Source: Mycteria americana (lineage: Eukaryota; Chordata; Aves; Ciconiiformes; Ciconiidae). From it: DNA of 64,000 nucleotides. The stretch lies in contig NC_134373.1 of assembly GCF_035582795.1 (NCBI RefSeq), positions 14,530,001 through 14,594,000 on the forward strand, given 5' to 3'. Numbering within the stretch: position 1 is the first letter of the stretch; each line of letters opens with the position of its first letter. Both the position numbers and the translations under genes were made by a program. Shown here in pieces: positions 34,201-52,009 of the stretch. The notes beneath the pieces were generated by a model that saw nothing but the letters and a program-made list of their open reading frames with translations, was not told the DNA's origin and ran no database searches.

Positions 34201-37027
34201 AAGTAAAAATGAGCCTCCAAGTCAATTTACCTCTAATTTCTTTTTCAGAAAGACTGGAGCATCTTTTCCCACACATTTCATCAGGTTTTGCAGTATAAAG
34301 ATGTCTCTGATACTTGGAATGCGCTGCTCCACTAGTAATCTGATGAAGAAGCACACACAAGGCCTTGAGCTAGAGAGAGTAACTGTTTAATAGAGCTTTC
34401 CTCATTTGCAGAAACAGCTAGGTACCCCCATTCTCCTGCACTGATGTACTCCCAAGTTAAAGCTCCTCTCCCACCTCCTTTTTTTCAAGGCTGGCATGAC
34501 TCTACATGATGTAGCTGCAGCACAGCTATTTTGCACATGGAAATAATTATATGTGCTTTCTTAATGTTATCCTGATAGACGAGCGCTGTTGCTGATACAT
34601 TAACAGCAGGGGCACCTGACCAGACTGCACGTGACTGTGCAGGCACGAGTGCTGTTAAGCCTCAAGGAATTAACGCTCTTCTGCAGAAAAAAAAAAAAAT
34701 TGCACATTTTTGTCATAGAATCATCCATGTGCAGGCAAGTTCTGAAACAGCTAGGAAACTTGGGGATGGACACTGACAACAACTTAGTGCAAGTGAGGAA
34801 AAAACCCAAACAAGCAGTGCTGTGGGCTGCAGGAACAGGAGGGGATATCATAATGCAGAGGGATCATAAGCACAAGATGAAGGAGTTCTGCATTCCCAGC
34901 ACCTCCTTTTCTGGCTCAGAGGGAGGTATTGTAATTGTTATGTCTGAATCACCCTTAAGTATACCTGCACAGCTACAAAAATATGAAGTGTCACTTTCCA
35001 AGGCAGTGCACTGCTCTGAAAGTCATGCCTGCAGATAGGCAAGAGCTCCAGACATCAAGACAGAGAAAGAGCTGTAGATGGATCTCCTGCTTTCCACCAA
35101 CTTACAAGAACTGTGCACCTGAGCTTCCAGGAGAACTTGGTTTTAGAATATCACTAACACATCCACCTTCTCAAAGCAGGACCTGACACAGGACCAAAAG
35201 TACTAATCCGTGGCAAGTTTTGTGACAGCCTCAGCAAAAACAATCTCATGGGAGTGAGCAGATTGGTTATCCACATAAATCTCATTGGCCAGAAAAAAAT
35301 CACTGCAGGCAAAGAAGTTATTCTGATAAAGCACTACACAGAAGGCCTTGCTGGATGCGCAGATAAAGTCTAAACTTGTCTTCATCTTAATTTTGACTTA
35401 CTAAATTAAAAGAAAACATTCCCTGGCTGTTAAATAGCATTTTTCAGCATGACAAATCAAAATACTTCACAAAGTAAGCTAGTCTCATTACCTCCTTTCT
35501 ACACATGGGTAAAACAGAGGCATAGATATGCGAAGTGACTTGATCACCATCACAAAAAAACCACAGTGGTGGAGCTGCAGTCAGAATATGAATCCCCTGC
35601 AGAGCAGTCTAGCACCCTATGCCATCGGAAGCCTTTCTGCTTGAAACTGCAAAGACAATGCCAAAAATCACTGTCTTGTATAGCTGTTATCTCACGTGAT
35701 CATTTAAGTCCTAAAACCACAGTATGTCTGTGGTTTACACGCAGACATTCCCTCCATGATTTCTAAAAGACATATATTCAAACAACATGTAAATATGAAG
35801 AACATGTGAAAGATATATTTTTCTCACTGTAATCCAGCTTGAAGAGCGCTCACATTCTTGTCTTTATCCAGCCCTGCTAAAGTAGTTGCCAAAACTGAGA
35901 TACATCGGTTATCAAGTTGATTGAGCTTCTCCTGTTAAAGAGTTTTCACAATGTCAAATAACTTCAGACCAGTAAAAGTTTCAGAAAAGAAAAACTGACC
36001 ACTCTTAATCTGTACGTGCCGTCTTCTCTTTCCCCCCAGAAGTCAATTCATAAACTTTAATTCTGCAGTGATCTACAATGTCTCACATCAGTCAAATTTA
36101 GTTGATTTGAAAAGGGTAATGATTTTTGAGACTTCTCTCTGCTAAATCTGTGTGAAATCAGGCAGTGGTTTCAAAAATGAAGGGAATAGAAGTACACACA
36201 AATTAATTATGGGAGCCCTGTTTCCATTGAACATCAGACTAAACCAGGGACGTAACCCAGCCCTCTCTGATGTTGCACAGACTCCCAGAATTAGCCCTGG
36301 GGTTTTGGCCCAAACTTAGGAGAAAAGGGATTTCGATACTTACTTGGCACACTCTCACCAAAGTCTGGACTAGGAGAGTGTTCTGAGGAACACCTAGGTT
36401 CACCACGGCATGCAGACTGAACACCAGGTCACCCCGCGTCATCCTTCTGGAGTCCCGCAGCAGCTGCTGGCAAAGCTTGACAAAAGCTGGGTGCTCAAAA
36501 ATCAGCTGCTTCTCATAACGCTGCTGGTCTTCCGACAGGTTTTTGAAGAGCCTCCATACTGTAGTTAAACAGTTTGTGAAGTGCTTAATGGAAACAGCAG
36601 ACTCTGACGCCAAGTCCAGCACATCAGAAGGACAGGTACATTTCTGGAGACTATCATAGAATGCTTCTCTGTGATCTATTGCATGCTTCACTTCGAAGCT
36701 CCCACAGTCATCCAGCTTTTCAAGTTCCAAGGAGCTCTGGGGAGCCTGCTCACTCACCAAAGCCTCTGTACTCTTCTCTGGTTGTACTTTAGCACCTGTG
36801 CTAAACACATCTGTCTTTTGAGATAGAAATCGAATAGATGATCCATGCAGAGAAGGACAACTATTTAAAAATAATTTCCTGAAGTTCACATTTTCCAGGG
36901 GATCCCTGTATCTGCCAATCCATAAAATGTGTTTTCTTGTTGTGACTGAAGATTTGGGAGTGAGCACAGAACTGCACCTATGCATGCGTCTAACAGTATT
37001 TAACAAATAACTTATTTTGTTATTCAT
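25111..37027 (-). CDS. FASTKD2: FAST kinase domain-containing protein 2
   Basis: Mitochondrial RNA-granule protein of the FASTK family; in mammals it binds 16S rRNA and supports mitoribosome assembly (established knowledge). Eleven minus-strand coding exons join in phase to 679 codons plus stop: 36344-37027, 35828-35931, 34231-34339, 32562-32685, 30164-30303, 29686-29858, 29132-29295, 27895-28116, 26893-26977, 25690-25804, 25111-25230. Human is about 710 residues. The N-terminus ([17 protein letters not shown]) is basic with no early acidic residue, as in a mitochondrial presequence. The middle carries the FAST repeats, for example [15 protein letters not shown]. The end (602-660: [20 protein letters not shown]) is the RAP domain. 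The start is the first ATG in frame, with A at -3; a 5' non-coding exon ends at 37855 in the CpG promoter shared with MDH1B. No frameshift or stop was seen. Confidence 0.96.
25279..25312 (+). repeat. Perfect 17-base tandem duplication
   Basis: AAACTATCCTGTCCCAC occurs twice head to tail in the last FASTKD2 intron, about 50 bases from the terminal-exon acceptor. Confidence 0.9.
25444..25455 (+). repeat. C12 run
   Basis: Twelve C residues in the last FASTKD2 intron (G on the transcribed sense strand). Confidence 0.9.
25690..25804 (-). CDS. FASTKD2: FASTKD2 coding exon 10 (RAP domain)
   Basis: [20 protein letters not shown], then [18 protein letters not shown]: the RAP domain of FASTK proteins. 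Acceptor ttggttgtag, donor gtaaga. Confidence 0.95.
26893..26977 (-). CDS. FASTKD2: FASTKD2 coding exon 9
   Basis: [20 protein letters not shown] to SSAQ plus two bases. Acceptor gttttcag, donor gtgtct. Confidence 0.93.
27035..27081. repeat. Pair of short inverted repeats
   Basis: TTTGAAC and GTTCAAA flank a 7-base loop at 27035-27055. CAAATGA and TCATTTG flank a 5-base loop at 27063-27081. Both lie in FASTKD2 intron sequence; no function can be inferred. Confidence 0.6.
27895..28116 (-). CDS. FASTKD2: FASTKD2 coding exon 8
   Basis: [20 protein letters not shown] to VQLPYKYHI, 73 codons with split codons at both ends. Matches human DVHLPHNYHIDFEIR across the junction. Acceptor ctttttcag, donor gtatga. 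Confidence 0.94.
28117..29131. other. FASTKD2 intron between coding exons 7 and 8
   Basis: 1 kb, AT-rich. Nothing recognised on either strand. Confidence 0.5.
29132..29295 (-). CDS. FASTKD2: FASTKD2 coding exon 7
   Basis: [18 protein letters not shown] to DELLLS, 54 codons. The donor is a weak GTCAGG inside the direct repeat GTCAGGTCAGG; the second GT is the one that keeps phase with the next exon. Confidence 0.9.
29686..29858 (-). CDS. FASTKD2: FASTKD2 coding exon 6
   Basis: [20 protein letters not shown] to VPRGQKH plus two bases. Matches human LFILILFENLGFRP. Acceptor ttcttttag, donor gtacgt. Confidence 0.94.
30164..30303 (-). CDS. FASTKD2: FASTKD2 coding exon 5
   Basis: Split Glu codon, then [20 protein letters not shown] to CLWDKRQ. 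Acceptor ctgttacag, donor gtgagt. Confidence 0.93.
30304..32561. other. FASTKD2 intron between coding exons 4 and 5
   Basis: 2.3 kb. It holds a G13 run at 30393-30405 and several frames below 100 codons with no protein character. No gene seen. Confidence 0.5.
30393..30405 (+). repeat. G13 run
   Basis: Homopolymer of about 13 G in a FASTKD2 intron. Confidence 0.9.
32562..32685 (-). CDS. FASTKD2: FASTKD2 coding exon 4
   Basis: [19 protein letters not shown] to NACSKKIQ, 41 codons plus one base. Acceptor ttcactttag, donor gtaaga. Confidence 0.92.
32686..34230. other. FASTKD2 intron between coding exons 3 and 4
   Basis: 1.5 kb without recognisable coding sequence or repeat. Confidence 0.5.
34231..34339 (-). 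CDS. FASTKD2: FASTKD2 coding exon 3
   Basis: Completes a Gln codon, then [14 protein letters not shown] to [12 protein letters not shown]. Acceptor cttcatcag, donor gtaaat. Confidence 0.93.
35487..35620 (+). repeat. Ancient MIR-like SINE fragment
   Basis: TTACCTCCTTTCTACACATG, GGTAAAACAGAGGCATAGAT, GCGAAGTGACTTG, then GTGGAGCTGCAGTCAGAATA and a CTAGCACCCTATGCC end. The order is that of MIR-type elements. It lies in the FASTKD2 intron between coding exons 2 and 3. Confidence 0.55.
35828..35931 (-). CDS. FASTKD2: FASTKD2 coding exon 2
   Basis: [20 protein letters not shown] to SALQAGL, 34 codons plus two bases. Acceptor ctttaacag, donor gtgaga. Confidence 0.93.
36344..37027 (-). CDS. FASTKD2: FASTKD2 first coding exon
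   Basis: 228 codons from ATG to VRVCQ and a gtaagt donor. It carries the presequence, a poorly conserved linker, and the first FAST-type repeats ([31 protein letters not shown]). The exon itself begins at 37135 after ttgtttttacag. Confidence 0.95.
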
Positions 37028-37032
37028 TTTTG

Positions 37033-37123
37033 CTAATCTCTCATGAAAAGATTTGAAATGGCAACGCAAAGTAAGGGATGCAATGAAATTCTACCAGTGG
37101 AAACAGTCCTGGAGAAACTGCAT
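37033..37123 (-). promoter_or_regulatory. FASTKD2: Upstream ORFs in the FASTKD2 leader
   Basis: Within the exon that starts at 37135, an ATG at 37123 opens a 10-codon uORF (MQFLQDCFHW) closed by TAG at 37091. It is in the same frame as the main ORF. A second ATG at 37044 opens MRD and stops at 37033, five bases before the main ATG at 37027. The ORFs are seen directly; a role in translation is inference. Confidence 0.7.
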
Positions 37124-37854
37124 AAGATCACTTATCTGTAAAAACAATTGAAAATTATGGATTAGTTACCAGACTTTCAATTCCTAAAGTTTCAATTGCC
37201 AAATGTATAAACACCTTCTACAGGAGAAAAAAACCCACAAAGATTTGGAAAAAGATCCCTGGAAAATGATTTGCAGAGGGCCTTCTATTGGGTCTCCTAC
37301 GTTTTAGTCGAACATCTCAACACAAGGCTAACTCATCCTAGGTGTCAATTCGTTTTCCTCCTTGCTGTTTTAACCAAAAACTATGCCGGGAGGGAGAGTC
37401 TTTTCCTAACTGGCGTTTCTCCAAGCAGACGCGTCTCCTGACAGGGCCCTGGTGGGTCACCGCCAACCTTCACCTCCGGTTAACAGAATCCTGCCCGGCT
37501 GCGGCCACAAACAGCCTGTCCCAGCCTCCCTGCCGCCATCCCACGGGCGAGTCGCCTGCCCGGCGGCCGCGGCACACCCGCGGGCACATTCCCAGGGCCG
37601 GGGGCACCCGGCGGGGGCAAAGCCTCTCGGTTTCGGGCTCGCTTTCTGCAGGCGCAGGGAACGCTGCCCGCAGGGGTACGGTACTAGTGGCGTAGGCCCG
37701 CGGCCCGGCGCCAAGGGAACAGAGGCCTTTCGGCGGCTCCGCGCACCGGCTCCCAACACCCGGGCGCAACGGCGGAGGATCCCGCCGCGCCGCGCCGCCC
37801 GCCTCAGCCGCGCCGGGAAGGGCCGGGCGGGTCTCGCCGCCCGGTAGCTGTTAC

Positions 37855-37874
37855 CTCGCACGCGGCGGCGCCAT
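37855..37874 (-). other. FASTKD2: FASTKD2 non-coding exon 1 (3' part) with split uORF
   Basis: On the minus strand GCGTGCGAG is followed by a gtaaca donor at 37854, a good candidate for the end of the first exon, since the next acceptor is at 37136. It contains ATGGCGCCGCCGCGTGCGAG; after splicing this reads MAPPRAR and stops at TAA. The transcription start is not determinable. Confidence 0.55.
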
Positions 37875-37963
37875 GACACCCGGGCCCCCCGCTCCGCGCG
37901 CTCTCGCCGGGCCTCGCGAGAGGGACGGCGCGGGCCGAAGGACAAACCGCCGTGGCGCGCGGC

Positions 37964-37980
37964 GCGTTGCTGCGCAACGC
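37964..37980. promoter_or_regulatory. X-box-like (RFX) palindrome
   Basis: GCGTTGC-TGC-GCAACGC is a perfect 7-base inverted repeat with a 3-base spacer, 30 bases before the MDH1B ATG. GTTGC/GCAAC half-sites are the core of RFX-binding X-boxes, which mark many genes of ciliated cells. Factor identity is inference. Confidence 0.5.
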
Positions 37981-38009
37981 CGAAGCGACCGTTGGAGGGT
38001 GCCGCGCGC

Positions 38010-38031
38010 ATGGCCAAGCTGGTGCTGGCAG
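38010..38031 (+). CDS. MDH1B: MDH1B exon 1
   Basis: ATG plus six codons (MAKLVLA) and one base before gtgagg. Human begins MAKFVIAG. Confidence 0.92.
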
Positions 38032-41000
38032 GTGAGGCGGCGCGGCACAGCGGCGGGGGCCGGCCGCCGCCGCCGCCTGCCTGTGCCTCTGCCGGCTTCG
38101 TAGCTTTTCGCTCTCTTAGTCTCTCTTGAGAAAGGTCTGTGCGGCACGCTGCCTCGGCTGTGTGCGAACCAGCCTGCTCCCCTTCCTATTCCGCCGGTGA
38201 GGCTTCTGCCTCTCTCTGCTGCTGCCCCTACCCGCCCCTCCCCCCCCCCCCCCCCGGAGTGGCCTCCTCCTCAGCCCCTTAAACGCTGGCTGAAGAGACT
38301 GTTTCAACTCCGAAATTATCCTTTCTTTGCTGGCTCGTACGCTTGTCCTGTTACTTTCTGGGAACCAGCACGGGATGCTGGTTACGGGAGGCTCTTTTTG
38401 AATTGGAACAATTAAAAAACGTTTGGCTTGTTAAGCCCTTATCAGTCAATGTCACAAAATCTTCCATTTGCAGTGTTGTCGCTGTGTTCACAGGTAAGGC
38501 AAACTGCCCTTACTATGCCAAAGCTGAAATCCTGGCTGACTGTCTCCAGGCTAACTTGCCAGACTTCAGGGTTCACAAGATCACTCAGCACCCTGACAAA
38601 TGGGAGGTAAGGGATTGTAAGTCAAGTCGTTGGTAGATGCCCCAGTGCTCTACAAAGCAAGGAACGTCCTTATCTGTAGTATGGCTCTTCTTGTCCTGTA
38701 TTAGTGTTTTGATAGCGTGTGGGTAGAGGTGCTACAGAAGCAGCTTTGGCAATGAGAGCCAGCCAGAGGAAAGGTTTGAATGTTGTCAGAGACTGGCATT
38801 CTCGTGAGTCTTACCACAGAAGATGGGCATGAATGAGGGCCAGCCTAAAGCTGTGTTTTGTCAGTAAGAAGTTCAAGTTTATTGGGTTTTATTATGTATA
38901 AATGGCTGCTCAACCTGTAAATCTTTTGCAAACTGTGATTGCATAGGCCTTCAGAGTTGTTACTTGTCAAGGACATTTCTGGCATTCAAGGGCTTTGAAT
39001 TACAATGGAAGTATGAAATTAAATCTCACATACTGGTTTACAATGTGGATGGGCCTTTCTGAGTACTTTTGCTGTAGACATGTTGCCATGTCTGCACTGT
39101 AGTTCCTATAAGGAACTGAAAAAATTGCAGTATTACTTCATGAGATAGACAGTACTATGATGTTTATTACCTCTTACCTTTTGCTTGACACCTCAGCCAA
39201 GTAACTCAAAGAGTTAACTGAATAGCAATTAACCTCTGCAGCTTACTTACCTTCTGCAGTTAAATAGGGATCCTCAGATTACTCGCTGCTTCACAACATT
39301 GCTATCTTTAGTACCGCTAAGATAATTGAGCAAAATTACGGCAGTAAAATCAAGCAGAAGTAAGACCTGTTGATCTTTTGCTAAGGTATCACAGTGTATC
39401 ACCATGCCTTGCTTTGTGTTATTCCCCCATTTTGTGCACAGTGGTACGTGAATAAGTTGTGAAGCACCTTGTAATTATGTATTGAGAGGAAATAATGTTT
39501 ATAGCTGTAACATTAAGTGTTATCAAGTGTGAAAAAGTATTAAAACCTTTTGGCGGGGATGTTTACATTAGCAGTGGCTTCGTGACATTTGTGAAATGAA
39601 TGGATGGGAACACAGACAGTCTCCTATCGTTTGGAGAGAACTGTTGGACCGTGGAGGGAAGGGTCTGCTTCTGGGAGGAGTTAATGATTTTCTGGAATAC
39701 GCTCAGGTAATGAGCTGCCTTTAATACTGTAAACTCATATTTTACATTTTCTTATAACATTGTTGTTCTTTATTCTTCCTACAAATGTAAAATAAAGCTA
39801 TCCTTTCTAATGTTACCTTGCTGTGTTTGGGTTGTCATTTGATTAGAGATCACCCTTTTTGTTCTTAGCACTATTATGGCATCACCTCAGCGATGTTGAG
39901 TGAGGAAATGTTAGACATTGCTGAGGAGAACCTGCAGGCGCATATTGAAATTGAAAAAGAGGAGGAAGAGAGTAAAAGTCTTATCAAGCCTTTGGAGATC
40001 TGGATCACCAGGTGAGAGTAAAAAGAGTATCTATGGAGTTTCACTCAGCATCAGAAGAATGCATTTTTTCCTATCGCATATAACAGGTGTAACCATCTGA
40101 AGTTATACATGAATCCCTGTGATTTGCTGCTTTGAATTAGGTTCTGCGCCCCTCACTATGAGCATTCAGTGTATAATTTAGAAATTATTTCTACTTTTGT
40201 TACATTTTGCACCAGTTTAAGTGAGGGATGTGAACAGGCAACATTTAGACCCCAGACCACCTTAGGGAAAAGCAAGTATTTACAAAGTAAGCTAGGAATT
40301 TTGTAGTACAACTATCTTGCATTAAATGTTTTTGGAAATATTTAAATAAGTAAAGAGTCTCTTGCAGTTCTAGCTTTAGAAATTTCTGTATTTCTTGTAG
40401 TCCTAACAGAGCACCTTAAAAAAATTGTGATTCTTTAAAGACACCAATTTTTAAGTGATGGTATCTCCTGAAATGTATAGGATGGAAAAACCTTCAAATG
40501 AAAGGAGGACCTAACTGTTTTAATTTCTAGCCTGTTAAAATGACAGAAAGAGCAATAAAGGATATAAGCTAATGGTCTATGTAAACATAATAAAATACAA
40601 AAGAAAGATCTTTGTGTTTATTTATGTAATGCTTCCAAACAAGCAGTGGTTAGTGGTTAACTATAATTTTTCTATATCCTTCTCTTATCAGTGCATCAGC
40701 TTCAATCGGTTATCAGCTGATCCCTCTGTTGGCCAATGGAGAAGTGTTTGGGATGACCACAGAAATCAGTATCCATTTGCTTGACACTGACCAGTTTAAG
40801 GATGTTCTTTGCGGTATTGTAATGGAAGCTGAAGACATGGCGTTCCCACTCCTCCACAGTATTTCAGAGCACACTGAAATAGATGAGGCTTTTATTCAAG
40901 CCGATATTATCATTGTTCTTGATGATGTCCTCTTAAACCATGAAGTCCAATCCCTTGAGAATTACGTCAGAGAAATGAGTGAGATCTGTCAAGTGTATGC

Positions 41001-44000
41001 TCCCCTGATTGAGAAGAATGCCAAGAGTGGGGTCAGAGTAATTTCATCAGGAAAAACCTTTGTAAACCTTAAGGCGATGATGATTATAACATATGGCCCG
41101 TCCATTAAGCCTGAAAATGTCATTGCCGTTGCGACATCCTGGGAAAGTGCAGCTAAAGCCATGCTGGCCAGGAAGCTGAATATGAGTGCAGCAGGTGATA
41201 TTTATGTGTTCTGGTAGCATTTGGGGAGTTCAGTGGGTGGACACCTTTGAGAGTACGTGTTTCATTGCAGAACACTGTTGATGTCCGTGCAGAAATGCAA
41301 GCACAGCAGTGCACCCACTGAATTGCATGGCTGTACAGAATGCCAGGGTGTGACTAGCAGGTGCTACCATTCTCTGTGCTTACCGCTATCTAGATCTGTG
41401 CCTGATCCCATGAACGTCAATTCTTTTGCTAACTCTTGGATGCAGTCCTGCCATTCTGGCGTGTATTTCATGCTGGAAATATACTAAGAAGGACTGAGCT
41501 GTGATGCAGATCAGGAACTAGGACTTCAAGATTGCATTTGCACTCTGCAGCGCATTGTTATTTTGGAGACACACAAACTAGCCATGAATAAATATGACAA
41601 CATACTGCTGTGCAGATAATGAAAGTATAGTAGAACTGTGTTGTAGTGTTATTCCTGGGTTAATTAGCTTGCTTTCTCAGGTCAATAGCTTGGTTATACT
41701 TGCATGGTTCTGCACTGCATAGCAAAGGTGTGCTCCAACAGCCTGCTCAGCATCAGGATTCTTTCAATGTTGCAGGGGTAGGAACTGGTCATCGATGACA
41801 AGTCTAGGTATTTTGAAGCCTAATAAAATAGAAAAGTAAGTTAATAGGCTGAATAACTTATCAGCAGGTTATTTGAGAAATGCCTTTTGCACCGAAGCAG
41901 GTAGGGGGGTTTTTTTAATGATTTTTTACTGTTAGGCATTCTATATTTGCATGTACATGATTTTAAAAGGAACATTGCTATATGTTTGCAATATGATTTT
42001 TTTTTTTGTTTTTAACAGCTAAGTATTTACTAGATTTTGTCTATTATGTACAATAACATGATATAAATTAAAGTTTCTTTTTCAGCTTGTGATGAGGTTT
42101 CATAAGTTATTGAGAACCTTGTTGTATTTTTCAGATCAAATAATTTCTGCTATCAAGGCAGGACACTGAATTGAAGAATAATTCATCTTGAAAGGGACTT
42201 CTGAAGGTCATCTAGTCCAGCCTACATTGGGAAAGTATTTGTCTCTCTTCATTAATTTATGTATTTTCCTCTGTTACAGGAGTTAAAGACGTGATTGTTT
42301 GGGGCAATATTACTGGCTGTAACTACATCGATTTGTCACATGCAAAACTTCATGGATATGACTGTGCTATTTGGGGCCCAGCTAACTTTCGACGTCCTTT
42401 GTTGAATATGATTTATGATAGGTACAGTACAGATTTGGTTTTTTAAAGTAAAACTAAATAACTGCTTTTAATCCATGTTTATCTGAACTGTGTAATAAAC
42501 ATCAAGAAAGGTTTTTGTTTTCAAGATTTTTCTTTACTGACTAGCACTGTACATGAAGGAAAACTCAAGTTGAATTACTCAGTCTGCAAAAGAAGTTGAG
42601 TAGTTCTACTGCTATACATAGTTCTGACTCTCCTGCCAACTTCATTTATATTTTCCAACATATTAAGTGTGTTTCTTTTCTATCATATCATGAGCAGCCT
42701 ATAAGAAGTAATGAAAGTCCAGATAGTGATTCAGATGTCTAGTATGCGTGAAGAAACTTTGAAATAATCTAATAAGTAATAATGAACATACAGCCTGATC
42801 GCACTACTGTTGTCAGTTTCCCAAAACAGACAATTTATTTGTTAACATGTAGGTTACCTGGCAGCTAGATAGCTTCTTGTGGAAAGAGAAGTAGCAGAGG
42901 ATGGGTGGAGTGAGAGGGCAGCAGATGTGACACGCACTTAGGCCTGGCTATACGGAGCTCTCACTTTGGTCTAAACCTAGCATTTACTGGACAGCAGACA
43001 TTTCTTTTGTTCTGTACTTGTACCGTGCCTAGCACAGGGGGATTATGGTTCATGGCTGGGTTCTTACATAAGACAGTAGTACATATAAGTAATAATAATA
43101 GAGGTTATGACTTGAGTAAATGACCTAACTTTCATAGATAAGTAGTGCTGGTTGTTACCTTTTGAAGCACTTTTTGTTAGACCCTATTTTTTCTGGTTTT
43201 AAGTGCCTTGCCTTCAGCAGGGAGGTTTGAATAAGTTTCAACTATTTTCTTCCCTCACGTTTAGTTCTTTTTTCCTCTAGAAAACTACTCTTCATGCAGT
43301 CATCTTAAGTTTTTTCTTCCTTCTTTTTTTTTTCTGCCCTTTTTTGTTGGTAGTAAATGGATCCATTCAGAATTTCTGTCTGCACAGAGTTCACTGAGTT
43401 CCCGGGTCTCTCATTGTGTAGGAATGTTACCTGCTCATGCGGTAGCCACTGTACTGAGATACTGGTATCATGGCTCTCCTCCTGGGGAGATCGTTTCTGT
43501 GGGAGTACTTACTAAAGGTAAATTACTTTTGCTTCACATATTATCTTGTAGCTTTCCCCAGTATGTATAGTGTTATTTTTTAATAAAGATTTTTAATTTA
43601 ATAAAAACTTGTAAAACAAATCATGATATAATGGGAGGTTGAGAGTTTGTTTCAGCATAAGAATGTCCAGATCTAAGCAATTTTGCTCTCCAGAGCTTGT
43701 GATTTGATACTCACTTCTTACAAGCATCTCTTAGGTTAATATTGTCTTATTGCAGATTGTCTCTTAGTCTTTTGATTTAAATGCTTTTCTGGTATATGTG
43801 TTTTGCACAAGGACTCTTTATAGTTCTTAGAGCCTAAGCTATAAAAGCATGTTCTTCATGTTCTTCTTGTGTAGTTATGTGGACCAATAAATGGAATGTT
43901 TCACAACAGCCATTTAACCCTTGTATGAAATAAAAAATTTAGTTTTCCCCCCTTTTTAAGATGTAAAATTGTTACATGTATATCTAACTAAAATACAAAG

Positions 44001-46861
44001 TTACAGTAAAAGGGGAACTCTTTAGTCTTTGACCTGCACACTGAAAAAGGCAGTCTCCATTTATACTGAGATCTTACAGTTGCAGACTTTTGCAAGCCTG
44101 TAGAACTTAATCTTGACACTGGTGAGGATGTGTTTTTTAATCAGAAATAATATGTTTGGGTCATTTTTTCCCTCTTCTTCAGGTCAATTTTGCATTCCTG
44201 AAGGGATTGTCTTCTCTATGCCAGTGAGGTTCCAGAATGGTAACTGGGAAGTCATGACAGAAGTAGAAATTAATGAAACGACCCAAGAAGTTCTGGGACG
44301 CTTAGCCCATGAGCTGATTCAGGTGAGTATGCCCATTCTGCCACCTATGGGTACGTTGCCATATAACTTTGAACACTGAGACCTTTACTCCAAATGTTAG
44401 ACATACAAACTATACACACGCACTTATGCATGATAAATACCAGGTATTTATAAGTGTAAGGTAGTATTTATATATTGAAATGAACAGACGACTGTTCTGT
44501 TGCCCAAAAAGGAGATGATAAAATAAGTTCACCTATGCAAGTGTAGAATTTGCACCCTGAAGTTCTGCAGGCTTTGTGCAAAACAGAAATATTAGCTTTA
44601 ATTTAATGTGTCTACATTCTGTGCTGCTGATGTTGATTTTGCTTGTGTGGCATTCAGAGTAGTTCTATGCCAGGAAACATATCTTTTGGGATCCTTATGG
44701 CTGTGACTCTGCATAAATGAAGGCCAGATTTTACTAGAATTAGGGATTTTTCAGAAAATACAAAATCAGTGAGCAGTAATTGCATCATGAACTTCTTGTC
44801 ACTTAGTGAGACAAAAAGAATTTAATTTGACTAAATATTAAAATATTAAAAAGACTGGTCCCAAACTCTACATTCTAGCTTCAATCAGATTTTGTGATCT
44901 TCAGTCATACTAGTAACATGTAAGGATTATTTTAATTTAACATATTTTAAGTTTATGCTAGAAATGACAGTGGATGAAAAGAATGGGTGATACTAAAACT
45001 GCTTTTTTTTTCCATTCAGGAAAAGCTCATTGCTCTAAAGGAAATAAAAGAAATGCATCCATATGGAGCTGATAAAATCACTAGTGAAAAATATTTGCAT
45101 CAAGGTGGGTTTTTCTCCCCATAAAAGATGAGATAAAGTTTTAAGTGAGAATTTAAGTAATGGATTCTTATTTTTATGTCCCTTTTGTTTAAAATGGATA
45201 TAAGATCCTTCAGGAAGGAACATAAATAACAAGTGCTTGTCTGATGTATCCTGACCATGCCTGGGGCATGGTGATAGGAAGGGCAAGCCTGCATGGTAGC
45301 AACCTTGTTTTGGTAAGTTTCTATTGTGTCATTCACAGATCATGAATATAAAAGCTGAGCATAAATAACACATTTAGCATGACACATTTTATCTTAGGTT
45401 ATTAGTAAATATAAAACCTTTTTAACCCAAGTAACTATTATTAGAAAAGCACTTTCACCATATGGCCTACTATATGTTTTTGAAGCTATTCTTTACTGTA
45501 CTTCACTATTCTTTACTATCTAGAAAAAATGAGTTTAATTTCTAACAGAGAAAAAAATACTGTAAATTGGAACTCAAACTTCTCATTTTTCTGTTTGTTA
45601 CAGTACCAAACAGTTAATTCAATATCTTTAGTCTATAAGCCAGTCAGAAGAAGAAAAGGTTGAGACACCCAAAGACAGTAGGCTAAAAAAAGAGATATTC
45701 CTAGTTACTATAGAGAAGGCAATCTCAGTAAGTGGCAGACACATCTGCCACTTCTTCCAATTACAGTAGATGAAAGGTCTTTTAGAGATCCCTACATTAT
45801 AAATTATTATTAAGTTTGTTGATGACACACCAAGTTTATCATGACTTAAGTTTTTTAAATACACAATGATATGAGAAATTTCAACTAAAAATTTATAACA
45901 ACTCCCGTATCCCTTCTTAATATTTAGGAGCATGTGGGAAGGTTATAGGCTACATGATACTGCCATGCAAAACTCCCCCAAATCCACAATCTACTTTTCC
46001 CATGCAGAATAAAAACATCCACATCTTCTCCCAAGTCTTTCTGTACTGTTTTTCCTATATATTTTGCTTTTCAAGTTCTCTGTCCTCTTAAGATTATATA
46101 ACTGAAAGAAGAATCATTCATCAAAATAAGAACAGATGAACTTTAAAGTGTCTTTTATTGTTGTTTTCTCACTTTTTCCCTATTCTCAGGTTCCCAAATC
46201 CCTGCACTTTCCCAATATTCTAGCCATTTCTTTCTACTTTTAGGTCCTATGGGCCTTTCCCTAGTTAGTTTTCTTTCTCCTTTCCTTCAAATTCTTTCCA
46301 GTACTTTTATATCAGCACTTACCATACTGTGAGCTGTTCTTGTGCATTAAGGGCAGGCTGAAGAACAGGGAAACTATTTGGAGCTTGATGCCCAGGGCCT
46401 TTAGTGAGCACAGAAGCCTTTTGGTTATCCATGCTTGTTTCTCAGGAAAGGACTACAGACACAATAAGATTTTCTTGATAAATGCAGAGTTTAATTATTC
46501 CACTAATCATGACTTTGATTAACCCAGACAGGAGATTCCCAATTAGACAGGAATGTCCTTCCCTGTCTGCTCTCAACTTGTATGGCACTGCTTTTCTGTA
46601 GACCTGTCCCATTCTTCTTGTGGCTGCTTTAAACACTAAGCAGACGGCTTTTCCACTGCTAGCAGCTAACTGCTTAGTTGTGGCCTACTCTTGTGACATT
46701 AGTATCAAGTGTTTTATCAAGTGTGACATTAGTATTCAAGGATTACCTAAGTGCCCTGCTTATCTCCTTGCATGTGTAAGTATTTTAGGAGGTTGGCAAA
46801 AATATGTACTGTTTTTGCTTTTTTTACAGAGATGGAAGCCTTGCCTACTGGCTCACTTTAG
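38010..46861 (+). CDS. MDH1B: Malate dehydrogenase 1B (probable pseudoenzyme)
   Basis: Ten plus-strand exons join in phase to about 492 residues (human about 518): 38010-38031, 38494-38606, 39572-39706, 39869-40011, 40692-41194, 42280-42421, 43354-43517, 44183-44322, 45020-45104, 46830-46861. Residues 1-90 resemble a glutaredoxin fold: [18 protein letters not shown], then SPIVW and [14 protein letters not shown]. Residues about 132-470 align with cytosolic malate dehydrogenase, but the NAD-loop glycines are changed ([10 protein letters not shown] at 136-145), the catalytic His is I316 (VWGNI), and the partner Asp and Arg are W288 and A291. The residues are seen in the sequence; the positional comparison with MDH1 is from memory; loss of activity is inference. 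Human MDH1B, as I recall it, has the same changes. The last exon is the least certain. Confidence 0.93.
38240..38255 (+). repeat. C16 run in MDH1B intron 1
   Basis: Sixteen C residues at the downstream edge of the CpG island; the complementary strand is G-quadruplex-prone. Confidence 0.9.
38494..38606 (+). CDS. MDH1B: MDH1B exon 2 (CPYY motif)
   Basis: [19 protein letters not shown] to HPDKWE. C12-P-Y-Y15 sits where glutaredoxins have CPYC. Acceptor gttcacag, donor gtaagg. Confidence 0.95.
39572..39706 (+). CDS. MDH1B: MDH1B exon 3
   Basis: With the upstream AG of a tandem acceptor (TTAGCAG) the exon begins [12 protein letters not shown], matching human DWLKDVCEKNKW in length. It ends [11 protein letters not shown] before gtaatg. 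Using the second AG (39575) would drop one Gln. Confidence 0.92.
39869..40011 (+). CDS. MDH1B: MDH1B exon 4
   Basis: [20 protein letters not shown], an acidic stretch ([10 protein letters not shown]), then PLEIWIT at the start of the dehydrogenase-like domain. Acceptor tgttcttag, donor gtgaga. Confidence 0.95.
40692..41194 (+). CDS. MDH1B: MDH1B exon 5 (Rossmann-like core)
   Basis: 167 codons from [20 protein letters not shown] to [11 protein letters not shown]. It spans the nucleotide-binding-like half, with IIIVLDDV and [15 protein letters not shown]288 and A291 occupy the positions of the MDH catalytic Asp and substrate Arg. Acceptor cttatcag, donor gtgata. Confidence 0.96.
42165..42235 (-). 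mobile_element. Degraded CR1 LINE 3'-end fragment
   Basis: CATCTTGAAAGGGACTTCTG, then AAGGTCATCTAGTCCAGCC matches the reverse complement of avian CR1 3' ends (compare the clearer copy at 58.9 kb). It ends about 45 bases before the MDH1B exon 6 acceptor. Confidence 0.65.
42280..42421 (+). CDS. MDH1B: MDH1B exon 6
   Basis: [20 protein letters not shown] to LLNMIYD. The MDH signature GNHS reads GNIT here (I316). Acceptor ctgttacag, donor gtacag. Confidence 0.96.
43354..43517 (+). CDS. MDH1B: MDH1B exon 7
   Basis: [20 protein letters not shown] to [14 protein letters not shown], 54 codons. Acceptor ttggtag behind a long T/C tract, donor gtaaat. Confidence 0.95.
44183..44322 (+). CDS. MDH1B: MDH1B exon 8
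   Basis: [20 protein letters not shown] to LAHELIQ, corresponding to the C-terminal sheet of MDH. Acceptor ctcttcttcag, donor gtgagt. Confidence 0.96.
45020..45104 (+). CDS. MDH1B: MDH1B exon 9
   Basis: [20 protein letters not shown] to KYLHQ plus one base. Acceptor tccattcag, donor gtgggt. Confidence 0.92.
45105..46829. other. MDH1B intron 9
   Basis: 1.7 kb before the candidate last exon. No other plausible exon with the required phase was recognised. Confidence 0.45.
46830..46861 (+). CDS. MDH1B: MDH1B candidate terminal exon
   Basis: After a strong acceptor (GCTTTTTTTACAG) the phase from exon 9 gives [10 protein letters not shown] and TAG. An AATAAA follows 79 bases after the stop. Chosen on acceptor, phase, early stop and poly(A) signal, not homology; the human tail is longer. 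The alternative is retention of intron 9, which stops after seven codons. Confidence 0.5.
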
Positions 46862-46940
46862 CTAGATTTGTCTGGAGGAGAAAATGCTGGAAATTCCCAT
46901 ACTAAAACAATGTTTCCATTGCTCAAAAGAGCAAACTACA

Positions 46941-46946
46941 AATAAA
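46941..46946 (+). terminator. MDH1B: Probable MDH1B polyadenylation signal
   Basis: AATAAA 79 bases after the candidate stop at 46859-46861. A second AATAAA at about 47560 could serve a longer 3' UTR. Confidence 0.5.
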
Positions 46947-49027
46947 GGCTAAACATTGTCATAGCTTTTACAGTATCTTCCTCATCAAAAACCTGGAAAT
47001 CCGTAGGCAGAAAAATATTTCAAAAACAGTGTGAATATAACATTCTTAATCTGGAGACCAAAGCAAAGTTCCTACGGACTTTAATGAGTCTAGGATTTCA
47101 TTTACATCCAACTACTTATTTCTTCAGACCAATAAACTGTTTCAAAACCATCTTTTAATGTCTAAAACGTTCATATTAAGACAATTTTGAGCAAGAATGT
47201 CACACATAGAGTAGCAGTTTTATAACTCCAAGTTCATGTTTCAGATGTAATGAAACACAGTACTTGTGTAAGAATGTATATTCTCAGGCAAAATTGATTT
47301 TTAACACAAAAATTTTACTGCATGCATCTCCTTAGTGACAAGATCATTTTTGTCTCCATGTTTTTTATTTACTTCATGAGTTTCATAGGGACTACTCATA
47401 TGCTTTACGTCAACATGCAATTAATTAAGTCCTTGTCTAAACAGGGTTGTTGAGGAACCACTTTCACTTGCATGTGTTCGGTGTCTTAAAAGATGGAGAC
47501 TGTGTTAAATGAAATATTATTGTACTTGCTAATTTTTTATCAGATGTGTTTAAAGCTAAATAAAAAGTTTCCTGTTCTTCGAATCAGATACATACAGTTG
47601 GAATAAATTCATTATTTCTGTTCAAGTGGAGGTTCAAACTCTGAACGGGGGTAGACTTCTTCTTACATGAGGAAACCAAGAGGAGTTTATTTGTTATTTA
47701 TCAGCTGATGTGGACAGAATGAGGAGGGGTGTCTTACTGGTATTAGAAAGAGGAGCTCAGAAAGCTGGGGTATCACAAGGGAGTTGGACGAGTGCAGTTT
47801 CTTATGTGAAATGTATATGGGAGAAGCAACATTTACAGGAACTGAGATATCATTACAAATATCTTCATGGAAGAGCTCACATGGGAGTTGTAGAGGTAGG
47901 TGTTATAAAAAGTCTTGAAGAAAGTGGTTAGGAATCATTCATTTCATGAGGAAGTGGTCTCCAGGGAATTAGTTTCTAGTAGTGTATGCACAGAAAATTG
48001 GCTGAGTCTCTGAGGAGCATCTGGAGGCAGATGTCTCAGGAGAGCATAGCAGGAAAGGATGCTACCAGTACTCTTTACAAACTACCGGGTTTGCTCCGTA
48101 GCTCCTTCTCCAAGACAGGAGAGGAAAACTTATGTCATGGTTTAATTTATTAAACACAGACAGTTAGCTTCTCTAATATGTATTTAACGTTTGGGTTTTT
48201 TTGTATAGAACATGATTTGGCAGTCTTTTACTCTTTGAATTTTTTTATTCTACCTGTGGAGATAGTTCCAACAGACTGCAATTCAAGCACCAACACTTCA
48301 CAGCTGTTAATGAGAAGGAAATTAACTGTTTCTGCAGGCTTACCAGACTTCTGAGTCACTACCTGAAAACCACAGGCAAAGAATTTCTTCTCAGAGACAA
48401 GAAAGACAAAACGAATGTCTTGGATGTCTCTTGTATCCTAAATTATTCTAATTAGATTTGCCTAGTGGCCTGCAGGGAAATTCAGGTCTTTCCTCATGGA
48501 AGCATGATAGAATGGTAACTAAAGTTTCTTTTCCTAGCTTTTGCTTAGGAGAGAAAGAAAGAATAAAAATTATAGGAAAGCTAAAATATGATAACATATT
48601 CAAAGTTGGTTACAGTTGTAATACAGGGGTAGACTTAGTCATCACTAAGTTTGTGTTTTCTATAAGTAATAAGTAATTTCTGGTACACATTTTCTCAGAA
48701 GTTACTGAGTAATGCTATGTATGCAGGACATTCATAGCACTGATGAATCCTGCTACCTGGGTGTTAGAGTAACTGTGGAAAAATTTATGAAAAAGGTCTT
48801 TAAGATAAATGTATGTGTCTTTCAAGTGCAGAATAAACCCTAGCATAAACCCTAGCATTTGGGTATACTGAAGAGTGTGTAAGCTTTCTGGTTGGTCTAA
48901 ACAATTCTTATTCTAGGACGTTACCACTAGGACTTTACTATTTTTCCTCTTTGTGTAGTTGCACCAACTGTTTGTTACAGCACACTGTGCTTTCTGCATT
49001 ATTGTGCCAGCTTCCACCTTATTTTCG

Positions 49028-49057
49028 GTCTCTATAGCAACGCTGTTTCTCAGCAAC
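49028..49057 (+). promoter_or_regulatory. Two adjacent RFX X-box-like motifs
   Basis: GTCTCTATAGCAAC (49028-49041) fits the X-box consensus GTHNYYATRRNAAC at every position. GTTTCTCAGCAAC (49045-49057) has both half-sites with a one-base spacer. A possible promoter for DYTN or an unrecognised transcript. Confidence 0.45.
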
Positions 49058-49340
49058 TGGGAGATGCTTTGTAAAGGCCCCTCAATTTAGAAATATTGCA
49101 CTCCAACCATAAGAAAAAATGGCTTTGAAACAAAGATCAAAGAAGTTTTATCTTTAATAATTCAGGATATTTATTACTAATTAATTAGTGTTCTCTGTTT
49201 TGACTGCTTAGACAATTACCTGATACTTTGATCTGGGCCTTTGCCAGGCATTTGTTGTGAACAGCATTAATTTAAAAGCAAACCTTTAGAACTGTGTCTT
49301 GAAGTCAACTTTTAAGTGCTATAAAACTACTGGACTTCTC

Positions 49341-49390
49341 TGGCGGTGTCGTCGTGACTTCTGGGCCTTTAGTAAGTAGCTGAGAGAAAG
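49341..49390 (+). other. Possible non-coding first exon
   Basis: A short CG-containing patch (GGCGGTGTCGTCGTGACTTC), unusual for this AT-rich area, ends at a good donor (GAGAAAG|gtaagc) about 300 bases downstream of the X-box pair. The 5' limit is arbitrary. It could be the DYTN leader exon; evidence is positional only. Confidence 0.3.
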
Positions 49391-52009
49391 GTAAGCACCA
49401 TTACTATATTTAAGAGGAGACAATAATTTTGGCCTTTGAACACAACATAGAATGTTTTCACCCTTCACAGGAAACAAAAGTAATTGTAGTTTATTTTATG
49501 CATATTTAAAATGTTGATCATATGTTGTCTGATTTCAAAAGAAGGAAGGCCTCTGTGATCAAGTCAATTAATCTATAGGGAGATTTCTGCCTTACTTGAT
49601 CTGGTTTGTCTTTCTCTGTACTTTAACTTAATTCTGTAACATGTTTAAAAATGCATTTTATTTGCTAAAGTACATATTCTGAGAACCTGTATAGGCAAAT
49701 GAAATACATATAAGTAATCAAATATGTTACTTTTCTTGCACATTCCAATAGGATTCAAGAATAAGGCTACTCTTGTTCTGCACATAACTGTATTTGTGTT
49801 AATGGGATCAGAGTTTATAATTGTAAAAATTTATTTCCTGTACATTTGTAATTAATTTTAAAATTCTTTTTTGTTTTGTGGAAGTGTTTTAATTATTAAT
49901 AAAGGGCACGTGTAGCTGAAATACAACACACTGACTGAAATAGTGTATCAATGAGCAGAGTTAGTTCAAATTTGATGTTTTGGCAGGCAGATGTTGCTTC
50001 TACTTTCATGTGATGTGCATTATAAAGTAGATGTGCTAACACTGAAGGTAGGTCCTGTTCATTTCACCTAAGCCCTCGTACTGCAGTCAAGATCTGGTCT
50101 CTCCAGAGTTTTGTGTATAAAAATGTAGACTGTACATATGTTAATAATGCCTTTCATAACTTTTTGGAGAGAGGGTTCATGGGTATGATGTTATGATCTT
50201 GCACAATGACAGCCAGTTCAGTAAAACACATAAACACATACTTAAATTTGGGACCATGAATACCCTAGTACAAGAGTATAGTGTGCTTATCCATATGGGT
50301 AATTTAAAGGTTAGACATTGCACTGTACTGGATAGAGAGCTTGTCATCTTACAGTAAGTATCAAGTGCTAATAGATTATGCATGCTGTATAACTCAGTGA
50401 TGTTGGTGGATCTGTTCTTATTTGAGTGAGCAAATTCTCACAAATGAGTGAGTTCTAATTTGAGTTTAACTTTTGTATTTTTACATTTGTTCTCTTGCTT
50501 TATTTTATGTACCTTTGGCGGAGAGAAAAAAAGGAGGAAAACATGAGGCGAGCTGTGTGTTTGTAAGTCTATCTTTTAGGTTGCTACATGTAGCTTTCAC
50601 TAAACACTTATGTTTAATTCATTGCTTAGAATCTTCTGATTTCATTGATTTCCTTACATTGACTTTTCTGTCAAGCTATGCAGAGGCATATACTGCTGCA
50701 CCCATTTTAGGAGTAATTGTATAAGCAAATTTACATGCCTATGTAAATGTTGGGCAGAACTGCAGTCTTGCAGAACCCAGGGTTGAGTCCAAGCTCTAAA
50801 CCTTAGTAAGGAAGAAAATAGAACAATAGTGAAAAAGAAACATAGTGGTATTTCTTTCAAAGAAGGACTTCAATAAAAACTGTAGCATTGTAGTCTTTAA
50901 TGAAGAAGTTATTAAAGCAAATCTCTATCCCATAATTTTAAATATTTATAGGTTATTTAAAGACTGAAACACAAAGTTGCAGCTTTCACCAATTAAAATG
51001 GTGAGCAGCACATTTATGGTAGACTCAATAATTATAGGTCATTGAATATTTATGCTTCGTAATTGGCCAGTATTCTGTCATGTTTATGACAAATGATCCA
51101 TGACTCTCATTGGAAAAACATAATAGAGTGAAAGTTTGGGTAAGTTCAGATTTAATACCAAATTTACTGCTTAAGTTTTAGATAGTTTCCAATTACTTAA
51201 TTTTTATTTATTCTAGCAAATTTCCTTTTTTTCCCCACTAAAAGCCATATATGTGGCCTTTGGAGTCTTGTGTAACTTAGATCTGTTATACCTAGTGTTT
51301 TTCAACTGTAATACTAACTGAAAGATAGTTACTATACTGAATTCACATTTATATTTTTATGTTTAAAAATAGAATGTAGTTTAGAGCATTAATGAAACAA
51401 ATCCTGAGGGGAGACATTCAATTTCTATTGTTATCAGGGACATAATTACTTTTGCTTTCAGGGTTGTGTAAAGAAGTAGATTCATGTTTATGCTTCCTTT
51501 TTCCCTTCCTTCTCAGCTCAAAAAGAAATAATGTCAGCTCAGCTGAAAAGTTTAGTTCAGTTTGAAAATATTAGAAAATAGACTTGTGAGCAATTGCAAT
51601 CAACGAATCTTGGGAAGAGTCCGGTGTAAAGGTACGCCCTCTCTGACGTGAAATTATACGCTATGGACTGTGTAGTAATCCTGTATGTAAACACTGGACT
51701 CTTCAATAGTGAAAGATCCCATTTCCTGTACTTGAAACTGTTTTGGGGACTGTTTTCGCCCAAATACAATTTTGCATTTACTAGACTTACTCCTACTTTA
51801 TACTTAGCAGAGAGCATGCAGAGCATGCAATTTTCTGGAGTTTCTCTGCACGTGACACCAAAACTATTATGTTGTTTTATGTAATTCTGTTTGATTTCGT
51901 CCCTGAAATGCATCCAGTAAATTGTTCAGATTAAAAGGTTTGATTTGAATGATTCGACATGTCTCTGTTTAGGAAATGTGGTTTTACACTTCGGTTTGTT
52001 TCATTCTAG

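Follow-up and report, generated by a model that had tools for sequence, protein, structure and literature searches.

The MDH1B gene and its product

A stretch of 64,000 nucleotides from Mycteria americana (NC_134373.1, positions 14,530,001 to 14,594,000, referred to below as the window) carries at 38010-45104 on the plus strand a gene encoding MDH1B, a relative of malate dehydrogenase (MDH). Its nine exons specify 482 residues when spliced. The evidence assembled here suggests that MDH1B is a pseudo-malate dehydrogenase with a glutaredoxin-like front domain, which serves as a subunit of radial spoke 3 (RS3) in motile cilia and sperm tails and holds MDH1 and PKA there. We assign this reading a probability of roughly 0.8. 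The gene is organized as follows (all features on the plus strand):

38010..38031, exon 1 (MAKLVLA), which aligns to residue 1 of PDB chains 9fqr_Xq and 9d2f_F
38494..38606, exon 2, with CPYY (residues 12-15) at 38505-38516, corresponding to the active-site CPYC of glutaredoxin
39572..39706, exon 3, with SPI (62-64) at 39620-39628, P63 falling on the cis-Pro of glutaredoxin TVPQIF
39674-39679, GG motif in exon 3, residues 80-81 on the glutaredoxin GG
39869..40011, exon 4, linking the glutaredoxin-like domain to the MDH part
40692..41194, exon 5, encoding the Rossmann half of the MDH part, with S138/A141 (lost NAD glycines), N220/L226 (lost Arg) and K259 (lost Asn)
41140-41142, W288 in exon 5 (lost Asp)
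41149-41151, A291 in exon 5 (lost Arg)
42280..42421, exon 6, with I316 at 42309-42311 in place of the catalytic His of GNHS
43354..43517, exon 7, a strongly remodelled part of the C-terminal MDH domain
44183..44322, exon 8, C-terminal MDH domain, inside the Ldh_1_C match (380-456)
45020..45104, exon 9, the last exon found; reading through its end would meet a stop 6 residues later

All eight introns have GT/AG borders and the spliced frame contains no internal stop, which agrees with the intact reading frame claimed in a preliminary description of this DNA. That description covered 40692..42421, corresponding to exons 5 and 6 only, and thus left out seven of the nine, including those of the front domain. 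No convincing candidate for a final coding exon was found in 45105-51600; a possible acceptor lies at 51517 (phase 1, with pyrimidines at 20 of the 20 preceding positions).

The identity of the gene follows from likeness over residues 1-472 to two chains labelled 'Putative malate dehydrogenase 1B' in the PDB, bovine 9fqr_Xq (594 bits, E 1.4e-177) and 9d2f_F (587 bits, E 3e-175). The latter chain is presumably from mouse, and our guess is that the entry is described by Zhao et al. 2025 (mouse RS3). Residues 130-460 match eukaryotic cytosolic MDH structures at E 1.6e-37 to 2.7e-41, spanning both domains of the lactate/malate dehydrogenase superfamily. Pfam Ldh_1_C scores above its cut-off (49 bits, best stretch 380-456), and Ldh_1_N has no match in the window protein. 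The fold had been called well kept. The Ldh_1_C match supports this in part; however, the C-terminal domain is remodelled, the counterpart of MDH1 residues 227-246 being mostly replaced, with four residues missing within or right after it (inside 227-246 by HMMER and one MAFFT alignment, after it in the other). An AlphaFold2 model of exon 5 alone reached a mean pLDDT of 31.8 and was discarded.

Residues lost from the MDH pocket

HMMER against mammalian MDH1 and MAFFT give the same pairing for the residues that make an MDH active. The catalytic H187 falls on I316 (GNIT), D159 and R162 of the LDHNRA motif on W288 and A291, the substrate-loop arginines R92 and R98 on N220 and L226, N131 on K259, and the NAD-loop glycines G11 and G14 on S138 and A141. 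When plant MDH1 (5nue) is the partner, HMMER shifts the loop gap and R92 comes to lie on L219, with the arginine still absent. N105 and Q112 of MDH1 are replaced as well (M233, Y240), and the Asp of the LLD motif (MDH1 D42) is kept as D169. The loss of the histidine, of the Asp and Arg, of the loop arginines and of the first NAD-loop glycines had each been proposed in the preliminary description, and its coordinates and its numbering of I316, W288 and A291 prove correct.

The same eight catalytic and NAD-binding residues are gone from all three MDH1Bs compared, those of the window, cattle and 9D2F. The replacing letter is identical in the three at four of the eight sites (S138, L226, K259 and I316). 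The preliminary description ascribed the same replacements to human MDH1B. For our two mammals, cattle and 9D2F, this is right for the histidine, which is Ile in all three proteins, but not for the other two positions, where W288 and A291 correspond to V and Q in both chains. Taken from these alignments, the loss of pocket residues is complete, and it is the loss that is conserved across MDH1Bs more than the residue that takes the place.

To gauge whether the losses are concentrated in the pocket, we used a reference set of 41 MDHs with an intact active site: 38 bacterial proteins, none of which was dropped, the MDH1s of 9D2F and 5nue, taken from the PDB output, and the MDH1 of the same genome. 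The last was rebuilt from eight exons (C3:121193464-121199432), complete except for the start Met, and retains all eight residues. Among 84 columns conserved at at least 97%, eight are annotated as catalytic or as part of the NAD loop (G11, G14, R92, R98, N131, D159, R162 and H187). Each of these is kept in 41/41 MDHs, apart from one gap at G11. Window MDH1B keeps none of the eight vs 32 of the 76 other columns (about 42%; one-sided Fisher p 0.017). The counts for the other columns are 32, 33 and 32 for window, cattle and 9D2F (p 0.015-0.017), and placing the MDH1B rows by an alternative MAFFT alignment, in which 8 columns differ and a four-residue gap lies as in HMMER, gives 0/8 vs 31-32/76 (p 0.017-0.020), with 31/76 (p 0.020) for the window protein.

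The MDH search had used two arginine-loop peptides, so that conservation of the arginine-loop columns is partly selected. With columns 89-112 removed, the three MDH1Bs show 0/6 vs 30-32/65 (p 0.02-0.03), or 0/6 vs 29-31/65 (p 0.027-0.037) with the alternative alignment; the window protein has 30/65 (p 0.03) in the former and 29/65 (p 0.04) in the latter. The four strictly catalytic columns N131, D159, R162 and H187 give 0/4 vs 30-32/65 (p 0.08-0.10), and for window MDH1B 0/4 vs 30/65 (p 0.095). The concentration of losses in the pocket is therefore likely, and statistically modest.

It is conceivable that MDH1B is an active MDH whose residues another alignment would restore; an acidic residue, E289, adjoins W288 in 3/3 proteins. 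This seems very improbable, as two aligners concur, the GNH site and the positions next to it contain no His, and the protein stays far below the curated MDH cut-offs, with 176 vs 470 bits for TIGR01758 (MDH_euk_cyt) and 183 bits against a cut-off of 346 for TIGR01759. With the His-Asp pair and the substrate arginines missing, MDH1B falls outside the active MDHs. Retained binding of NAD(H) without catalysis, or another reaction in a re-purposed pocket, has somewhat more in its favor, but we still consider it unlikely. The D42 counterpart is Asp in 3/3 and G144 of window MDH1B represents the third loop glycine; however, G11, G14, N105, Q112 and N131 are all replaced. Moreover, several of the replacements in the window protein are not those of the mammals (AS, SL and TY at 141-142; W, V and V at 288), which does not look like a conserved pocket.

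In 2015, the former pocket of human MDH1B was proposed to bind Mg2+ and thiamin diphosphate through a motif G[DE][GA]x(24,30)NN, in which an acidic residue stands in for the malate-binding Arg (PMC4515825). The human protein is reported there to carry the motif, which took on a suitable conformation once placed on MDH structures. The motif is present in none of the three proteins tested (window, cattle and 9D2F): G[DE][GA] occurs in none of them and window MDH1B lacks NN, which leaves this proposal with very little probability and does not bear out the motif as a conserved trait. The acidic residue of human MDH1B at the malate-binding Arg means that part of the pocket loss has been in print since 2015 (PMC4515825), and as a pseudoenzyme the protein represents a known sort of thing.

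The least credible explanation is a gene copy decaying in this genome. The MDH part does evolve fast, with 51% identity to 9D2F compared with 90% for MDH1. However, nine open exons with canonical splicing, a front domain 77% identical to that of cattle and the same losses in mammals are not what a decaying copy would display.

MDH1 and MDH1B belong to one superfamily and share about 29% identity in the MDH part, but MDH1 keeps the eight residues and lacks the front domain. The five introns in the MDH part of MDH1B all lie at positions other than the seven mapped in the MDH1 of the same genome, and in a tree of 44 MDHs the three MDH1Bs group on a very long branch, a position that points to no particular source. 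Because of the absence of common introns and the long branch, MDH1B is an old or fast-diverged relative rather than a recent copy.

The front domain and glutaredoxin

Residues 1-91 of MDH1B resemble glutaredoxin, a likeness that looks new. We compared residues 1-95 with ten glutaredoxins by hhalign and obtained 92% probability over residues 2-91 (76 columns), with CPYY placed on CPYC, SPIVW on VPQIF (P63 on the cis-Pro) and GGVNDF on GGYTDF; in a longer pairing, the stretch around the GG is set against glutaredoxin HIGGYTDFAAWV. Left out of this comparison were glutaredoxin loci from a viral scan (L045-L124, 80 kept, 98-100% identical to E. coli GrxA) and split glutaredoxin exons of the same genome (L131-L138). 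One of the latter, L138, matches positions 15-59 of the Glutaredoxin family; it presumably belongs to an SH3BGRL-type protein, another glutaredoxin-like fold.

The hhalign score of 39.6 was equalled by none of 300 column shuffles (mean 10.6, maximum 27.0) and by none of 31 slices of the remaining MDH1B, whose top score was 12.2. Masking residues 37-95 left 30.1 and masking the GG left 31.6; the second half alone, with residues 1-36 masked, scored 23.1. The only NCBIfam matches to the front domain are two GrxA glutaredoxin models, found in 3/3 orthologues with best E values of 0.0044 and 0.022, although the score of 16.5 bits lies far below the curated 84. A profile of three sequences, searched against the PDB, ranked E. 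coli glutaredoxin 1 first after MDH1B (E 0.21), and BLASTP of GrxA with the 9D2F front domain aligned 29 residues with 12 identities (E 2e-6 for a single comparison). This E. coli protein (1EGO, GrxA-type) shares with MDH1B the order of a CPY start, a Pro segment and a terminal GGxxDF; MDH1B differs in having Tyr for the second active Cys and a longer middle with an insert ahead of the GG.

Several results weigh against the relationship. With CPYY masked the score drops to 23.5, a loss of about 40%, and the probability to 22%; this value and the 23.1 of the second half lie more than 5 standard deviations above the shuffle mean, but under the best shuffle. Against four glutaredoxins only, hhalign gives 86% and aligns residues 3-33 alone. 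Residues 1-133 of the window protein matched no Pfam or PHROGs family, glutaredoxin (PF00462) included; two further Pfam families each hit a single other member (E 0.2 and 1.2). When the window sequence alone is searched against the PDB, E. coli glutaredoxin 1 appears at E 1.0, among hits at chance level. We consider the evidence for a glutaredoxin-like fold in residues 1-91 good, but not final.

The front domain is also the best-kept portion of the protein, with constraint gauged by protein identity between window MDH1B and the two mammalian MDH1Bs. Identity to cattle is 77% in residues 1-90, 51% in 91-127, 48% in 128-305 and 52% in 306-470. Taking both mammals together, the front domain is 77-78% identical and the MDH parts 48-52%; residues 91-127 reach 51% and 46%.

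The bovine (9FQR, Xq) and 9D2F (F) chains have the front domain and the pocket loss in common with the window protein, and CPYY is kept in all three, with Tyr15 at the second Cys of CPYC. It is possible that MDH1B is a redox or metabolite sensor, whose monothiol CPYY unit binds glutathione and tunes RS3 or the neighbouring PKA. C12, P63 and G80-G81, which lie on the active Cys, the cis-Pro and the GG of glutaredoxin, are kept in 3/3 orthologues. However, the second Cys is replaced, and many proteins with a glutaredoxin fold are scaffolds only. A sensor seems the less likely role, while being the strongest of the alternatives to a structural RS3 subunit.

MDH1B in radial spoke 3

MDH1B and MDH1 chains occur together in PDB 9FQR and 9D2F. 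The atomic cryo-EM model of bovine sperm RS3 (9FQR) is reported to comprise 17 assigned proteins, the centre of the head being occupied by a dimer of malate dehydrogenases, 'MDH1A/MDH1B', to which the PKA regulatory subunit binds (PMC11779644, 2025). That report lists the dehydrogenases with the enzymatic domains of RS3, and its main text contains none of the words glutaredoxin, thioredoxin, redox or NAD. Immunoprecipitation of CFAP91 from mouse testis enriched 45 proteins, of which MDH1B was one (PMC12423330), and MDH1B is listed among candidate ciliary genes with experimental validation (PMC11317154). The loss of the pocket in three MDH1Bs, the assignment to the RS3 head and the CFAP91 enrichment together support a conserved non-enzymatic, structural role. 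The preliminary description had suggested a role of this kind and was right on the residues, but neither the radial spoke nor the front domain appears in it.

Judged by its sequence, MDH1B would be without enzyme activity. We propose that one live MDH1 subunit is kept at RS3 through the MDH dimer face of MDH1B, and that the pair would also hold PKA at the spoke, with the pocket of MDH1B itself idle. The front domain may be the part that docks in RS3, and the older RS3 component. A Tetrahymena protein, TTHERM_00770670, resembles mouse MDH1B in residues 1-66 only and is significantly diminished in CFAP91-KO Tetrahymena (PMC12399478). Because this protein resembles residues 1-66, and because the front domain is 77% identical to cattle vs about 50% in the MDH parts, we regard this domain as the probable conserved core and constant RS3 part. 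A dead paralogue paired with a live relative is known from trypanosomes, where AdoMetDC associates with a prozyme (PMC5201418); the likeness to MDH1B extends to the pairing, and the prozyme in addition activates AdoMetDC.

Some points speak against this assignment. Maps of about 5 Å are given when PKA is discussed (PMC11779644), which may limit the certainty of the MDH1B assignment. RS3 membership is reported for mammals, and for the Mycteria americana protein it is a prediction. The Tetrahymena likeness ends at residue 66, ahead of the GG motif; a single peptide of TTHERM_00770670 was found in LRRC23 labelling, and in the same study Tetrahymena's own MDHs are undetected in RS3 (PMC12399478), so the MDH pair in RS3 is not universal. 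No MDH1B activity assay was found in the literature searched. Finally, a search of 37300-38600 for a strict RFX X-box found none. The only loose match, at 38353, was rejected, as it does not exceed the window background (7-18 per 8 kb).

Around the gene, the window contains three further features:

37401..38200, no strand, CpG-rich stretch between MDH1B and a divergent frame on its left
36239-37069, minus strand, that divergent open frame (276 aa), facing MDH1B across the CpG-rich stretch
from 55866, plus strand, exon-like frame with an EF-hand_2 match below threshold (23.7 vs 27 bits)

A Pfam search of the 276-aa frame returned zero matches; by synteny it may be FASTKD2. The frame from 55866 would fit dystrotelin (DYTN), a neighbour of MDH1B.

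In the open-access literature, searched with loosely matched terms, we found no paper on the front domain of MDH1B or on MDH1B as a pseudoenzyme; the single co-mention of MDH1B and glutaredoxin found there concerns another protein, GLRX3. The part that deserves specialist attention is the glutaredoxin-like front domain with its CPYY. It is a tentative and rather doubtful extension that RS3 has a built-in ancient glutaredoxin-like CPYY unit, shared with ciliates, which would have it without the MDH half, and to which animals added a dead MDH adaptor docking MDH1 and PKA, so that thiol/glutathione, NADH and cAMP would meet at one spoke.

The function of MDH1B is listed as malate dehydrogenation in the tricarboxylic acid cycle (PMC10380512). 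If MDH1B is a dead adaptor, gene-set studies that count it as an enzyme of this cycle would be misled, and the RS3 dimer would have one MDH active site, not two. If the front domain is a glutaredoxin-like docking unit, its conserved Cys would allow the redox control of ciliary beating to be tested directly at one residue.

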